In this document: one piece after another, positions 11,471-17,325 of the stretch | How the letters are laid out: each line of letters begins with the position of its first letter | Numbering within the stretch: the stretch's first letter is position 1 | From: a virus | Virus record (IMG/VR): IMGVR_UViG_3300020442_001285 | Location: 1-36,490 of that record | DNA: 36,490 nt | Direction: 5' to 3' (one strand) | Program-made: the position numbers and the translations under genes | The notes under the pieces: model-generated | Seen by the model: the letters and a program-made list of their open reading frames with translations, nothing else | What the model was told of the DNA's origin: nothing | The model's database searches: none

Positions 11471-13621
11471 TTATTCTCCGATTTGTAGTGCCGTTAGAGT
11501 GACTGTAATTGGGGTAGTATTGCCACTTCTATTAGTGACGGAAAGGTAAATATTATCTGTTCTAGGATTATCGTTGTTAAATCCCATAATACCAGGAGAG
11601 GTTAGAATAGATTCTGCTCCACTGGTTCTTACTTCAGCAATAACACCGCTGCCTGGGGTAGGATCTTGTCCTTCGCTACGTGTTAAATCTGCATCTCTGG
11701 ATGCATCATCAACATATACTCTTACCCATGCTGCAGTATCAACTGTAATTTTGAATAAAGTGTAAGCTTTATACCCAGTAATATTTAGTTCTGTAGTATT
11801 ATTATCAGCAACCGAACCTGTAGTTCCAGTAAGATCTTGAATCTGTGGTACAGATGATCCGCCAGTTGCGGTTAGAACACCGTTACCATCAATAGATAAT
11901 CCAGAACCAACTTTAATACCACCAAGAGTTGTTGGTGATGCTATAGGCAATGTATAAGATCCAGTGTTAGCACTAAGAACACCATCAACGTCAATACTTA
12001 AGTTAGCACCAACCTTAATACCGCCAAGTGTTCCTGCTGCAGCAATAGGAAGTGTATATGCTGGAGGAATTGTAGGTTTATTTAAAATTTCTGCTAATCC
12101 AGATGTAGCATTCCAATCGGCATTGACTGGTTCTGTACTACCAAGAGTAATTCTATTGTTAGCACCATCCCAACTTACTGTTGTACCACCACTACCAGCA
12201 ATCTCAATCTCATCATCATTATTGTTAGCATCACGGAGAGTAAGGATGGCATTGTTACTGGTGGTGTTTGATCCTAATAGATCATAGGTAGTTCCACCTC
12301 CACCACTTACAGTGACAGTTGTATCAATTGAGTTGTTTGCATCGTTATATGTAAACGTAATTCCTGAATGAGTTCCATTAGTAAACAACTGAGCAGCAGC
12401 ATCTTGTGCATCTTCTGATGTAAAAGTACCACCAGAACCAGAAGATGGCGCTCTGAATGTAATTGTATTAGCGTCAGTTCTTTCTACTGTTAATCCATCT
12501 GCACCTGCAAATTTAATACCATCAGTATTACCATCACTATCAGTCATTACGAATAATGAATCTGCGGTGCCAACAGCAGTTTCTGCAGAGATAGAATAAG
12601 TAGTATTTGTTACATCATTATCTAATTCAATTTCATCCCCAGTTCTACTGATTGATAGTCCAGTTCCTGCAACTAAAACAAGTTGATCAGTAGTGCCACC
12701 AGAATCTTCAAGTCTGATTACTTTTCTTGCAGCATTTTCTTCAGTACTGCCACCAGTGTAATCTAGAGCATTAATTGTATATGTTAATTGACTGTTACTT
12801 AATAGAGTTGCAAAATCAGATGAAGTTACACTGTTAGTTGTTACTAACCTCTGACTGGTCCAACTGACACCGTTGGAATAGTACATGGATCCAGTATCAT
12901 CTGCATATGCAAAGAGACTTTCCGATGCTCCTACTGGAGGGAATGCCGCTACGTTAGCATGTAAGATTGATGGTGGTGTAGAACTTCCACTGCCACCTGC
13001 ACCACGTGGAGTTGCGTCTGTCCATTGAGACGAATCTCCATCTTGATAAAATATTTTTAAAACTCCAGAAGTTGAATCCCACCAAAGATCTCCATCAGTA
13101 GGACTACCTGGAGCTGCATCAGAAGTAGTTACCGAAGCACCAGCAGCTCCACCATAACCATTTGGTGATGCATCCACCCATTGGATTGAATCTGCATCTT
13201 GGTAATAAATTTTTAGAACACCATCGTCAGATTTCCACCACAAGTCTCCCACCATTGGTAAACTCGGTGCAGTATTTCCAACTGTTAGTTTTGAATATTC
13301 ACTAAGATCTACTAATGGGGGAGTGTAAGTAAAACTATAAGTGTCCCCGATTCTTGCTAATTGAAGAGAACCAGATCCTGCAGCAGGATTTTGAGTTAAA
13401 CTAATATTAGTTACATAACCATTTACTGCATGGTTACCCCAAGTAAATGCAACGTCCCAATTAGATATATTGGCTGACGTTATATTAGCAGCAGGAGATC
13501 CTACGAATATCGGATCCGCCTCAGGAGTATTCGCTAGGTTGAAGAGATCCTGAGCGATTAGGTTAATTTCTTGCCTCTGCTCTTCCAGACTAAAAGATTT
13601 GGCTACATTCCTGAGTACCAT
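11471..13621 (-). CDS. Modular tail-fibre protein with MVLRNV anchor, 716 residues
   Basis: The N-terminus MVLRNVAKSFSLEEQRQEIN, then LIAQDLFNLA, is shared with the 1221- and 517-residue fibres. It continues DPIFVGSPAANIT and NWDVAFTWGNHAVNGYV. Two copies of GDLWW-(K/D)-S...GVLKI-(Y/F)-YQD-x-DS-x-QW lie near residues 122-160 and 170-210. Two copies of TLGGIKVG-x-x-LSID-x-x-GVL lie near residues 525-585. The last 120 residues (from IQDLTGTTGSV to TVTLTALQIGE) form a predicted beta-rich tip. It follows a late promoter whose octamer overlaps the previous stop, and it lacks a clear Shine-Dalgarno. Long or side tail fibre is the likely role. Confidence 0.8.
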   Translation of the reverse strand: MVLRNVAKSFSLEEQRQEINLIAQDLFNLANTPEADPIFVGSPAANITSANISNWDVAFTWGNHAVNGYVTNISLTQNPAAGSGSLQLARIGDTYSFTYTPPLVDLSEYSKLTVGNTAPSLPMVGDLWWKSDDGVLKIYYQDADSIQWVDASPNGYGGAAGASVTTSDAAPGSPTDGDLWWDSTSGVLKIFYQDGDSSQWTDATPRGAGGSGSSTPPSILHANVAAFPPVGASESLFAYADDTGSMYYSNGVSWTSQRLVTTNSVTSSDFATLLSNSQLTYTINALDYTGGSTEENAARKVIRLEDSGGTTDQLVLVAGTGLSISRTGDEIELDNDVTNTTYSISAETAVGTADSLFVMTDSDGNTDGIKFAGADGLTVERTDANTITFRAPSSGSGGTFTSEDAQDAAAQLFTNGTHSGITFTYNDANNSIDTTVTVSGGGGTTYDLLGSNTTSNNAILTLRDANNNDDEIEIAGSGGTTVSWDGANNRITLGSTEPVNADWNATSGLAEILNKPTIPPAYTLPIAAAGTLGGIKVGANLSIDVDGVLSANTGSYTLPIASPTTLGGIKVGSGLSIDGNGVLTATGGSSVPQIQDLTGTTGSVADNNTTELNITGYKAYTLFKITVDTAAWVRVYVDDASRDADLTRSEGQDPTPGSGVIAEVRTSGAESILTSPGIMGFNNDNPRTDNIYLSVTNRSGNTTPITVTLTALQIGE

Positions 13622-13653: not shown

Positions 13654-13661
13654 TATTTATC
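13654..13661 (-). promoter_or_regulatory. Late promoter GATAAATA overlapping a stop codon
   Basis: The minus strand reads AGCTGATAAATAACA at the end of the 1221-residue gene. The stop TGA (13662-13660) shares its last two bases with GATAAATA, a match to the NATAAATA late consensus. The ATG of the 716-residue fibre follows at 13621, leaving a predicted leader of about 27 bases. Confidence 0.65.
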
Positions 13662-16600
13662 AGCTCTTCATGATGAATGCTAATGCGTAGTATTCTGGAA
13701 TCACATTAAATGAAGTTCCATTACCTACATTTTTAGTTGATGCAGATCCTCCTGGTTGAGTTACACCAGGACCGCCAGGACTTGTGTCTCCTCCACCATT
13801 TGAACTGGTAGTTTGTGCGCCACCTTGATCAGTAGTTCCACCAGTACCACCCGTAGTTCCACCACCACCATTTCCAGTATTTCCGCTGACAGAAATTGCT
13901 GTCCAGTGAGTATGATCACGAGTAATACCTGCAGTAGTACCACCATGAGTATGGTTTCCTACTCCAGCAGTGTAAGCATCATATTCAGAGTTACACAGCG
14001 CAATGCCACTACCCTCTCCATTATGATCAGATCCAAAACTAGATCTTGCATATAAGTGAGCATGAGCTCCTGCATTACTAGTAGTAAAAGCGTGCTCATG
14101 ATTCTGACTTTGGTAGGAACTTGTAGCACTTCCTGATCCACTAAAGGAATGATAATGCGAACCAATAGAATGAGTATGATTGCCCATTCCATGGGAGTGA
14201 TTACTAACGGTATGATCGTGAGCAGTTACGGTATGAGTATGATTACCAACACCATGAGCATGTGGATCTATATCATGTGCATGAGATGGCAAGTGAGTTT
14301 CTGATAAAGAAACGGAATTTGATCCGCCCGTAGCACCAACCTCAATACCACCAGTTCCACCAGGAGCACCATGAATTGCAGAAACCTTTGAACAAGATAT
14401 ATTGCCTGGTTGTGCTGTGCAAGTTTGATCAAACTGTATGGGACCAGGAGAGTCTGAAATAACACCAGCAATACCAGTATCTAAAGTGTTAATCTTGGCG
14501 ACAAGTTTACCACCTTGAGAATGACCAAACAGATAAACATCTCCAATAGTTTTGCTACCACCCTGAGCAGAAATATATCCATTCAAGGAATTTTTAACCC
14601 ATCCAACTGCTGCTCTTGCATAAGGTAAGTTATCTCCTATTAAGAAGTCTGATTGCTCTGTACCAACGCCAGTTAAATTAAATTGTCTATCCTGAGCAAT
14701 ATGATCTTGGGGGTATGCAACAGAGAAAATAATCTTATCTCTTACATTGAGATTTGTATAATTAGCACTTGTAGTATCAGTGCCTACAAATCTCTCAAGC
14801 ATATCCGATGCTGCTTCTCCAATAGTTGAGCTTCCACCCTGTTGTAGTGTTCCGTGGAATAAAACTACAACATCAACTTGAGATGCGGACAAACCTGTAG
14901 GAACATACAATTTACCCATAACTGGATATGATGTATTACCTATAGTATGAGTTTGCCCATTTGAAGGAGCGATAGCAAACTCTACATTTGTAATTGCATT
15001 ACTACCAGCATCTGATGAAACAGCAGTTCTAATTGCTGCCTGTAGTGTAGCATCTGTTGTAAATGCATTATGTCCTCCAGTAGCAACTGTTGTGAGAGTT
15101 GCTGTAGCATTAGAACTGATTGCCTGAACAGAAGATACATAAGCTTGCAACCATGTTGGTTGGTTACCACCACCAGTATCATCATCTAGCGCCTGGAGGA
15201 ATTCTATTGGCGCATTATGTGTGCTAGTCCAACTCTCAAGACCAATTGTCTCATATACTGATGGTCCGCTTCCATCTGAACCGACACCCATAATAAATTT
15301 TTCGGTAAGATTTGGAGTTCCGTTTGTTCCATCGCAAAGATACCAACCAGCAGGTATTGTTGAAACAGCACCACTCCACATAATGATGCCTCCCGATGGG
15401 AAAGCAGAAGCGCCATTTGCTGCAGCAGTGATTTGCCCCTGAGCGTTAATAGTTATAGTCGGAGAAGAATATTCACCAGCAGTAACACCAGTGCTCGCTA
15501 AACTAAGAGTTCCTGTACTTGTTATAGGTCCGCCAGATAATCCTGCTCCAGTATCAATTTGAGTTACTGCAGATGTTAAGAAAACACTCAAGTTTGGTGG
15601 AGTATAAGTAAAAACACCACTGCTAGCATCATAACCAAGATTTGGAGTTCCAGTAGGAGAGTTCTGAACAACAGAAATATCACCTAAAGAAATTCCTCCG
15701 TTATCGGACTGAGTAATCCAAGATGTTCCATTATATTTTAAAACGTCACCCATGTTAGGAGATGATGCACTAACATCAGAAAGATCATCTACTGCTACTG
15801 ATGTTAGATAACCTTGTGCTCCATGATCTCCCCAACTATGTGCCGCGTCCCAATTACTAATTTTAGGCGATGTAATAGTTGCAGCTGCTGATGCACTATA
15901 AATTGGATCTGTTTCTGTAAATGATGTTAGATATCCTGCTTGACTGTGATCACCCCAATTGTATGCAACAGTCCAATTAAACTTATCTCCTGCTGTTGCT
16001 TGTAAGTATGGAGAAAGATCTGGGGGAATATATCTAAATGTACCAGTTGTATTATCATAACTTAAACCACCATCTCCACTTGCAGTTAAGTTACTTCCTG
16101 CAGAAAGATCCGCAAGACCAATACCGCCGCCTCCGCCACCGCCACCGCCTCCAGTGAGGTCTGATGCAGGTGACCATGTACTACCATCCCATTTAAGAAC
16201 TTGACCTACTGCAGGGTTTGGAGCGTTTACATTTCCAATGTCACTTATGCTTGCTATAAATTCTGTGCCAGGACTCCAATTAGAACCATCCCATTTCAAT
16301 ACATTTCCTACACTAGATGTAGTTGTATCTACATCACTCAGATCATTTATACTTGATGTAATTGTCAGATAATTACTGGTATTAGGTGGCGTATAAAAGA
16401 ATGTTCCTGAGATATTATCGTAGGAAAGGTTTGGTGTTCCTGGGGATGTAACCGCGACTGAAAGGTCTGTTAAAGAAATACCACCGCCACCTGATCCACC
16501 ACCTGTGAGATCGGAAGCAGGTGCCCAATTAGTACCATTGTATTTTAGAACTTGCCCTGGAGTTGGAAATGGAGCATCAACATTTTGCAGATCTCCAATA

Positions 16601-17325
16601 TCAATATTTACCGATCCACTAACAGAAAGATCACCTATAATATCTACGCCAGTGTTACTGGTTGAAAGTCTGGTGTTAGTACCAAAATAAAGTTGAACAG
16701 GTCCACCTTGAATACCTGTAATATAGGCATCACCTTGCTGAGTTTTTGGTCTAATAATTAATTGATCTGAATCAATAAATGAAGTCTGAATACCTGGAGT
16801 ACCGTCAAAATATAAACTAAGATCATTGTTAGTACCAATTTTTAGTACATCATTATCGTCAAAAGTTATATCTCCACCAGTAGTATTACCTCTGGAAACT
16901 ACTGCAGCAAGAGTATCCGATTCTGCAGTTAAATAACCAACCGCATTGTGATCTCCCCAACTATATGCTGCATCCCAATTACTAACATTTGCACCAGGAG
17001 CATACCCTGCTTGACTATGATCACCCCAACTATATGCTGCGTTCCAATTGACTATTAAAGTATTGGTGATGTTTGCAGCAGGTGATGCGTAAAATAGAGG
17101 GTCAGTTTCTGCAGTTAAATATCCAGCAGCATTATGGTTACCCCAACCATATGCAACATCCCAATTAGATATTTGTAAAGACGTTATATTTGCAGCAGGA
17201 GATCCTACAAACACAGGATCTGTTTCTGCTGTGTTTGCTAAAGTATAAACATCTTGAGCAAGAAGATTAATTTCTTGACGTTGTTCCTCAAGACTAAAAC
17301 TTTTTTGTACGTTTCTAAGTACCAT
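13660..17325 (-). CDS. gp12-like collar adhesin with inserted hydrolase-like domain
   Basis: Residues 1-30 are the MVLRNVQKSFSLEEQRQEIN anchor. Five NW-(D/N/T)-x-A-(Y/H)-x-WG-(D/N)-H repeats follow in the N-terminal half, with four L-x-DV...G-x-VLK-(W/Y)-(D/N)-G repeats and poly-Gly linkers. A phage tail-collar domain starts near residue 638 (GGIIMWSGAVSTIPAGWYLC, then NLTEKFIMGVG) and resumes near 995 (GATGGSNSVSLSETHLPSHAH). Between them lie about 300 residues resembling an alpha/beta hydrolase. The C-terminus is His-rich (HAH, HTH, HDH, HSH, HYH, HEH) and ends FNVIPEYYALAFIMKS, as in gp12-type receptor binders that trimerise around metal ions. Its start overlaps the 69-residue gene by 11 bases. 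Confidence 0.8.
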   Translation of the reverse strand: MVLRNVQKSFSLEEQRQEINLLAQDVYTLANTAETDPVFVGSPAANITSLQISNWDVAYGWGNHNAAGYLTAETDPLFYASPAANITNTLIVNWNAAYSWGDHSQAGYAPGANVSNWDAAYSWGDHNAVGYLTAESDTLAAVVSRGNTTGGDITFDDNDVLKIGTNNDLSLYFDGTPGIQTSFIDSDQLIIRPKTQQGDAYITGIQGGPVQLYFGTNTRLSTSNTGVDIIGDLSVSGSVNIDIGDLQNVDAPFPTPGQVLKYNGTNWAPASDLTGGGSGGGGISLTDLSVAVTSPGTPNLSYDNISGTFFYTPPNTSNYLTITSSINDLSDVDTTTSSVGNVLKWDGSNWSPGTEFIASISDIGNVNAPNPAVGQVLKWDGSTWSPASDLTGGGGGGGGGGIGLADLSAGSNLTASGDGGLSYDNTTGTFRYIPPDLSPYLQATAGDKFNWTVAYNWGDHSQAGYLTSFTETDPIYSASAAATITSPKISNWDAAHSWGDHGAQGYLTSVAVDDLSDVSASSPNMGDVLKYNGTSWITQSDNGGISLGDISVVQNSPTGTPNLGYDASSGVFTYTPPNLSVFLTSAVTQIDTGAGLSGGPITSTGTLSLASTGVTAGEYSSPTITINAQGQITAAANGASAFPSGGIIMWSGAVSTIPAGWYLCDGTNGTPNLTEKFIMGVGSDGSGPSVYETIGLESWTSTHNAPIEFLQALDDDTGGGNQPTWLQAYVSSVQAISSNATATLTTVATGGHNAFTTDATLQAAIRTAVSSDAGSNAITNVEFAIAPSNGQTHTIGNTSYPVMGKLYVPTGLSASQVDVVVLFHGTLQQGGSSTIGEAASDMLERFVGTDTTSANYTNLNVRDKIIFSVAYPQDHIAQDRQFNLTGVGTEQSDFLIGDNLPYARAAVGWVKNSLNGYISAQGGSKTIGDVYLFGHSQGGKLVAKINTLDTGIAGVISDSPGPIQFDQTCTAQPGNISCSKVSAIHGAPGGTGGIEVGATGGSNSVSLSETHLPSHAHDIDPHAHGVGNHTHTVTAHDHTVSNHSHGMGNHTHSIGSHYHSFSGSGSATSSYQSQNHEHAFTTSNAGAHAHLYARSSFGSDHNGEGSGIALCNSEYDAYTAGVGNHTHGGTTAGITRDHTHWTAISVSGNTGNGGGGTTGGTGGTTDQGGAQTTSSNGGGDTSPGGPGVTQPGGSASTKNVGNGTSFNVIPEYYALAFIMKS
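14341..15258 (-). other. Alpha/beta-hydrolase-like domain inside the collar domain
   Basis: Covers residues about 690-995 of the 1221-residue adhesin; boundaries are approximate. A buried strand with an HG turn (VVVLFHGT, His824) fits the oxyanion-hole region. GHSQGG (Ser936) is a nucleophile elbow of the G-x-S-x-G type after VYLFGHS. Downstream, GVISDSPG (Asp958) follows the next strand and SAIHGAPGG (His985) the one after. Those could complete a triad, but in the commonest arrangement the acid and histidine come one strand later, so the domain may be truncated or inactive. Substrate is unknown; a surface ester or lipid is possible. Confidence 0.65.
15805..17168 (-). repeat. Five-copy NWDxAYxWGDH coding repeat
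   Basis: Five copies of a 17-residue unit NWDAAYSWGDHxxxGYL occur in the 1221-residue adhesin at about 17118-17168, 17000-17050, 16931-16980, 15928-15980 and 15805-15858. Single copies occur in the 716- and 679-residue fibres. Copies two and three share the 17-base run beginning CCCCAACTATATG on the plus strand, which points to a fairly recent duplication. The unit is a common shaft element of phage fibres. Confidence 0.75.

Follow-up and report, generated by a model that had tools for sequence, protein, structure and literature searches.

A predicted, circularly permuted alpha/beta-hydrolase domain in the collar of a marine phage tail fibre and in many other virion proteins

The tail fibre gene considered here raises the question of what a hydrolase-like domain is doing in the middle of a phage tail collar. 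The gene lies in a stretch of 36,490 nucleotides of phage DNA (IMG/VR record IMGVR_UViG_3300020442_001285), which is called the window below. The phage resembles the T4-like cyanophages, its wedge protein matching that of S-B43 at 60%. The gene encodes a collar-type fibre of 1221 amino acids on the minus strand (13660-17325, including the stop codon; tail fibre phrog_9729, E 2e-96), and its reading frame is open over the full length with no stop or shift at either joint of the insertion. The first half of a gp12-like collar occupies residues 644-689 (15259-15396, minus strand) and reads SGGIIMWSG...KFIMGVGSDGSGPS; the collar is taken up again at residues 996-1017 (14275-14340, minus strand) with VGATGGSNSVSLSETHLPSHAH. 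Between them are the 306 residues of the insert (residues 690-995; 14341-15258, minus strand), whose conserved core extends over approximately residues 691-988, the remainder being linker. The split collar scores 16.9 bits against PF07484, the phage tail collar domain, for which the Pfam cut-off is 24, and fibre residues 630-689 match the collar and tail fibre families phrog_1800 and phrog_5795 with E values from 2e-12 to 4e-14. When the two flanks were joined and used as a single query, 38 of 50,697 phage records matched, and all of the matches listed were one uninterrupted piece. One of these is S-TIP37 (47% over 78 amino acids), in which FVVGAGNSYS is followed directly by VGDTGGSTST; these align with FIMGVGSDGSGPS and VGATGGSNSV on either side of the 306-residue insert. 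The corresponding empty site of S-SKS1, FVVGAGNNYA followed by VDATGGS, aligns to the same joint. The collar sequence is thus continuous in its homologues and split in the window fibre. The original prediction, that an in-frame domain sits inside a gp12-like collar as part of one chain, is confirmed by the open frame, the PHROG-matching flank and the uninterrupted empty sites, and its placement at 14341-15258 was correct to within a few residues.

The AlphaFold2 (AF2) model of the inserted domain has a pLDDT of 77 and a pTM of 0.82, with low confidence at the termini and in two loops. In a Foldseek search of the PDB its five best matches were all engineered proteins, namely HaloTags in circularly permuted form and a sensor built on HaloTag (named matches 8b6o, 6u2m, 8b6p and 8b6n). 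A relative with the canonical strand order, L025, gave a better model (pLDDT 94.5, pTM 0.93) and 1181 PDB matches at E<=1e-3, headed by acylaminoacyl peptidases and esterases. The models contain the central beta sheet with flanking helices of the alpha/beta-hydrolase superfamily. A serine-hydrolase-like domain had been proposed, with structure prediction and Foldseek as the check and a non-hydrolase fold as the refutation; the fold came out as alpha/beta-hydrolase, and the residues of a complete triad are conserved. The proposed nucleophile is Ser936, in the motif GHSQGG (14518-14520, minus strand; position S247 of our alignment A1), the proposed catalytic acid is Asp715, in QALDDD (15181-15183, minus strand; D26), and the proposed catalytic histidine is His752, in TGGHNAF (15070-15072, minus strand; H63). 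The aspartate is kept in all copies that cover it; the histidine is lost, and the serine replaced by threonine, only in one degraded copy, L041. A motif resembling an oxyanion loop, FHGT (residues 823-826; 14848-14859, minus strand), includes the HGT (824-826) that is found in nearly all copies and is HGD in L041. With L041 excepted, serine, aspartate, histidine and HGT are retained in every tabulated copy that covers them, down to about 40% identity. The original prediction had chosen Ser936 correctly, whereas its partners Asp958 and His985 do not hold: the first is mostly asparagine in relatives and the second is tyrosine in several. Two cysteines, Cys969 and Cys978, likewise do not vary in A1, and a disulphide between them is possible.

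Asp715, His752 and Ser936 do not follow one another in the nucleophile-acid-histidine order of the superfamily, because the chain is circularly permuted. Relatives of the same family with canonical order do follow it, their motifs running HGT ... GHSQGG ... QALDD ... GGHxAF. On the evidence of the models, the window domain is thus a permuted rather than a standard member of the fold. The last strands, once suspected to have been lost, are present and shifted to the N-terminus. Three circular orders were found. Order P1, that of the window, was recognized by a straight-through match to the window domain and is shared by 19 other rows of the tree described below; copies in other orders match as two swapped pieces. 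Order P3 runs from about domain residue 95 round to about residue 80, which is the usual alpha/beta-hydrolase order, and order P2 (S-SCSM1, L015 and L018) starts near residue 42 and ends near 46-55. When alignments allow for rotation all copies agree, and rotating the secondary structure predicted for L025 gives that of the window domain. The join of the canonical C-terminus to the canonical N-terminus falls at residues 769-786 (14968-15021, minus strand), as judged from the canonical-order copies L025 and L042. A similar join is present in P2, and P1 and P2 share a linker of the form GSTNPxGPIANxQFTI, which would fit a common origin in a tandem duplicate that was trimmed differently in each. 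Breakpoints are confined to a few loops, and the linkers at the junctions vary between host proteins. The circularly permuted alpha/beta-hydrolases known so far are mainly products of engineering, and the literature that we searched yielded nothing relevant on phage enzymes of this fold that are permuted in nature.

Relatives of the insert were sought in other phages, and dozens of IMG/VR contigs and one cultured phage carry the domain, in varied virion proteins. Successive scans of IMG/VR gave 25, 39 and 48 loci, many common to several scans, and in all approximately 50 relatives on marine phage contigs, with insert identities of about 40-72%, a similarity far above what chance would give. 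A tblastn search of 50,697 phage records found the domain in a single cultured phage, Synechococcus phage S-SCSM1 (two entries for the same phage; 59%). Plasmid and distant phage matches with E values of 0.3 or worse were regarded as chance-level. All 23 records searched (23/23), among them S-SCSM1 (228,827 bp) and a contig of 250 kb, contain a single complete copy, split matches being read as the two halves of permuted copies. Since many of these records are fragments, a count of one per phage can be taken as firm only in S-SCSM1 and as likely in the 250-kb contig. An apparent second piece in L022 (2-195), which might have been a tandem copy, was a misalignment into the host protein. Ratios of dN/dS between close copies (0.13-0.45) indicate, at the level of sequence, that the domain is under purifying selection. 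L041 (L041:6001-6864), which lies inside a wedge-like protein of 4706 amino acids, combines HGD, GHTQGG and GGQNAY, and this copy is probably catalytically dead.

The host proteins are diverse. BLAST clustering with the domain masked separated them into 17 clusters, of which some can be joined manually, and from these we count at least 12 families of virion protein, unrelated to one another, that carry the domain. Named from their PHROG and Pfam matches, the hosts include, among others, the collar fibre phrog_9729 (the window and L033), a tail fibre, phrog_529, with Peptidase_S74 (L002 and others), a short tail fibre, phrog_4924 (L028), an Ig-like/collar protein (L006), a baseplate wedge protein, phrog_2885 (L035), a protein of wedge-fibre connector type (L037) and a virion structural protein, phrog_30655 (L013). 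In L005 (L005:1965-2846) the domain is in a T7-like nozzle protein (Phage_nozzle, PF25675), and the module is therefore not confined to myoviruses. The hydrolase is also inserted in virion subtilases of the Peptidase_S8 family (L011:4033-7020 and L012:5593-8394); in L011 it splits the cupredoxin-like C-terminal part of the subtilase, which places two enzymes on one chain. The S74 fibre offers a comparison within one host type: one site is occupied by P1 in L007 and by P3 in L021, L022 and L025 and is empty in L002, while a second site is occupied by P1 in L002 and empty in L022. An enzyme nested in a receptor-binding tip is thus a fair description of the window fibre and not a speciality of such tips.

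A first genome scan returned no cellular relatives. A second scan, with divergent members as queries, found 16 cellular loci, mostly from Bacteroidota, and with these lipoprotein-like relatives and a broader alignment the idea of a phage-only family was abandoned. Most of the full-length cellular relatives are stand-alone proteins of ~280-320 amino acids with a lipoprotein-like start and canonical order, and they keep the same serine, aspartate, histidine and HGT residues. The nearest that we found are secreted lipoprotein-like hydrolases of Bacteroidota type (e.g. that of Flavobacterium difficile, L072), which are 33-39% identical to the canonical-order phage copies and share the HGT, GHSQGG, Asp and His motifs; they differ in being mostly stand-alone, with a signal-peptide-like start, a lipobox-like cysteine and canonical order, outside virions. 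In two Bacteroidota MAGs (L083:2582-4663 and L078:2594-4702) the relative is not a short lipoprotein but part of a fusion, preceded by a long N-terminal region in which repeats look dockerin-like by eye. In a tree of the rotated domains, one branch (100/100) carries the 13 cellular rows, and every phage copy falls on the second branch. Rooted on the cellular clade, P3 is basal among the phage copies and P1 and P2 are nested; P2 forms one clade, and P1 requires at least two changes, since L031 is separate from the rest. Because the cellular relatives are mostly of canonical order, the permutations arose inside phages, at least twice. Host types are interleaved in the tree: the window copy groups with that of L006, whose host is Ig-like, and with those of L028-L030, which are carried by a short fibre.

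Given the conserved triad residues and the alpha/beta-hydrolase fold, an enzymatic role is likely. We consider it probable that the insert has all that an alpha/beta-hydrolase needs for catalysis, that it is most likely an esterase, and that it is displayed on the virion and acts on a surface or extracellular ester at adsorption. When the particle meets a cell, such an enzyme could hydrolyse esters on a surface or extracellular polymer, such as the acyl groups of LPS or polysaccharide, a lipid or a polyester. Display on the virion can be compared with S-SCSM1, whose protein SSCSM1_235 (QFG06499.1) has the same domain at 59% identity with a conserved triad; it differs from the window fibre in being nearly stand-alone (368 amino acids) and of order P2. 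It is annotated as 'tail fiber protein (virion protein)', with no reference to its hydrolase nature. The record holds 33 such '(virion protein)' notes and 15 products named 'virion protein', 48 in all, and mass spectrometry identified 45 virion proteins (PMC9602691); the two counts are three apart, but this copy was probably among the proteins detected. Deacetylation of O-polysaccharide by phage spikes during infection is known, e.g. for the PP99 gp55 tail spike (PMC6989608); the likeness lies in the proposed role, de-esterification of a surface polymer at adsorption, and gp55 differs in being one dedicated tail spike. The variety of those proteins points to no particular step of infection. 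In the literature searched we found no description of this virion hydrolase domain.

Two other functions were weighed, each of which we judge unlikely. The domain could be a binding or decoration module that keeps a hydrolase fold and sticks to cell surfaces, with catalysis incidental. The domains known so far to roam among virion proteins are mainly binding folds, of which the Ig-like domains, one domain type in many unrelated virion proteins, are an example. The hydrolase roams in the same manner, sometimes within the same proteins (L006 and L034), and L041, without serine, histidine or oxyanion motif, could at least there have a binding role. However, the triad and HGT are kept in all other tabulated full-length copies despite their divergence, as well as in the cellular relatives, which argues for catalysis. 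Ig-like domains are usually appended and are not permuted enzymes nested in loops. The domain could also be a peptidase, whose task would be to cut back a protein of the host cell surface or, in the course of maturation, one of the virion itself. The acylaminoacyl and prolyl-oligopeptidase-type enzymes among the top Foldseek matches, the weak scores of the cellular relatives to Peptidase_S9 and the virion subtilases among the hosts would be consistent with this. Yet the Foldseek scores of esterases, feruloyl esterases and carbohydrate esterases are about as good, there is no propeller domain, and the sequence matches lean to Abhydrolase_3, BD-FAE and lipases, so that an esterase is preferred here.

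The wide distribution of the hydrolase might also be explained by selfish spread as a mobile DNA element or intein-like parasite, perhaps by way of circular DNA, which would account for the permutations. This we regard as very improbable. It would suit the many insertion sites, the clean in-frame boundaries, the circular orders and the single copy per record, but neither target duplications nor a shared junction motif were seen. At most of the 14 P1 junctions compared the longest direct matches are near the level of shuffled sequence, one match, TGGTGGTGGT, lying in glycine codons, and neither terminal repeats beyond about chance length nor a recombinase were found. The insert encodes a hydrolase only, with no endonuclease, integrase or splicing motif. 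The restriction of breakpoints to a few loops and the differing junction linkers also argue against such an element, and the similar linker of P1 and P2 is what tandem duplication followed by trimming would be expected to leave. An intein in the strict sense was rejected, since inspection revealed no splice motif at either joint and the fold is that of a hydrolase rather than Hint. A dedicated mechanism of mobility is thus unsupported, and the spread is most simply explained by ordinary recombination together with selection for a single displayed copy. That the window insert is an assembly or recombination artefact of a single contig, a failure that the original prediction had allowed for, can be dismissed: most of the loci are of metagenomic origin, but dozens of contigs and a cultured phage genome carry the domain, the frame is clean across both joints, and the insert has the composition of its host gene (GC 0.40 vs 0.40; GC3 0.19 vs 0.18).

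In the preferred reading, the phage domain would share a common stock with the secreted, stand-alone bacterial lipoprotein-like hydrolases of canonical order, would have entered marine tailed phages and would then have passed, always in frame, from one kind of virion protein to another. In the lineage of the window the strands bearing the proposed catalytic aspartate and histidine now precede the first strand, and a short linker joins the old termini. The new termini would lie together at a single loop, which would let the enzyme fit as a unit into a loop of the host protein, in this fibre the collar loop flanked by FIMGVG and GATGG. A broader proposal, that marine phages are selected to carry one hydrolase copy anywhere on the particle and that permutation, by joining the termini, allows nesting in almost any loop, has somewhat less than an even chance in our estimation. 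The permuted topology of the window domain is shared by the permuted HaloTags (8b6o, 8b6p and 8b6n) and HaloCaMP (6u2m), which differ in being man-made derivatives of a haloalkane dehalogenase with ~10% identity to it. This apparent enzyme roams among no fewer than 12 virion proteins that are unrelated to each other, and does so in three circular orders that arose naturally; empty sites, relatives of canonical order and a putatively dead copy are at hand for comparison. It thereby makes testable how a circular permutation originates, whether it is kept for its fit to loop insertion, and which ester marine phages need to cleave.

Annotation of such fibres with profile libraries overlooks the enzyme, since the domain is not covered by any Pfam, NCBIfam or PHROG model: none scored above its curated cut-off, and the sub-threshold matches were to Abhydrolase, Chlorophyllase and esterase models only. 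A match to phrog_8469 that seems to enter the insert arises from the collar half only, as residues 690-790 alone match no PHROG. Beyond the second half of the collar, the window fibre has a His-rich region of HxH repeats (residues ~1018-1130; 13936-14274, minus strand) that may be compared with the metal-binding region of gp12-type fibres. A paralogous fibre of 716 amino acids (11471-13621, minus strand) has neither collar nor hydrolase and shares the N-terminal module MVLRNVxKSFSLEEQRQEIN with the 1221-residue fibre.
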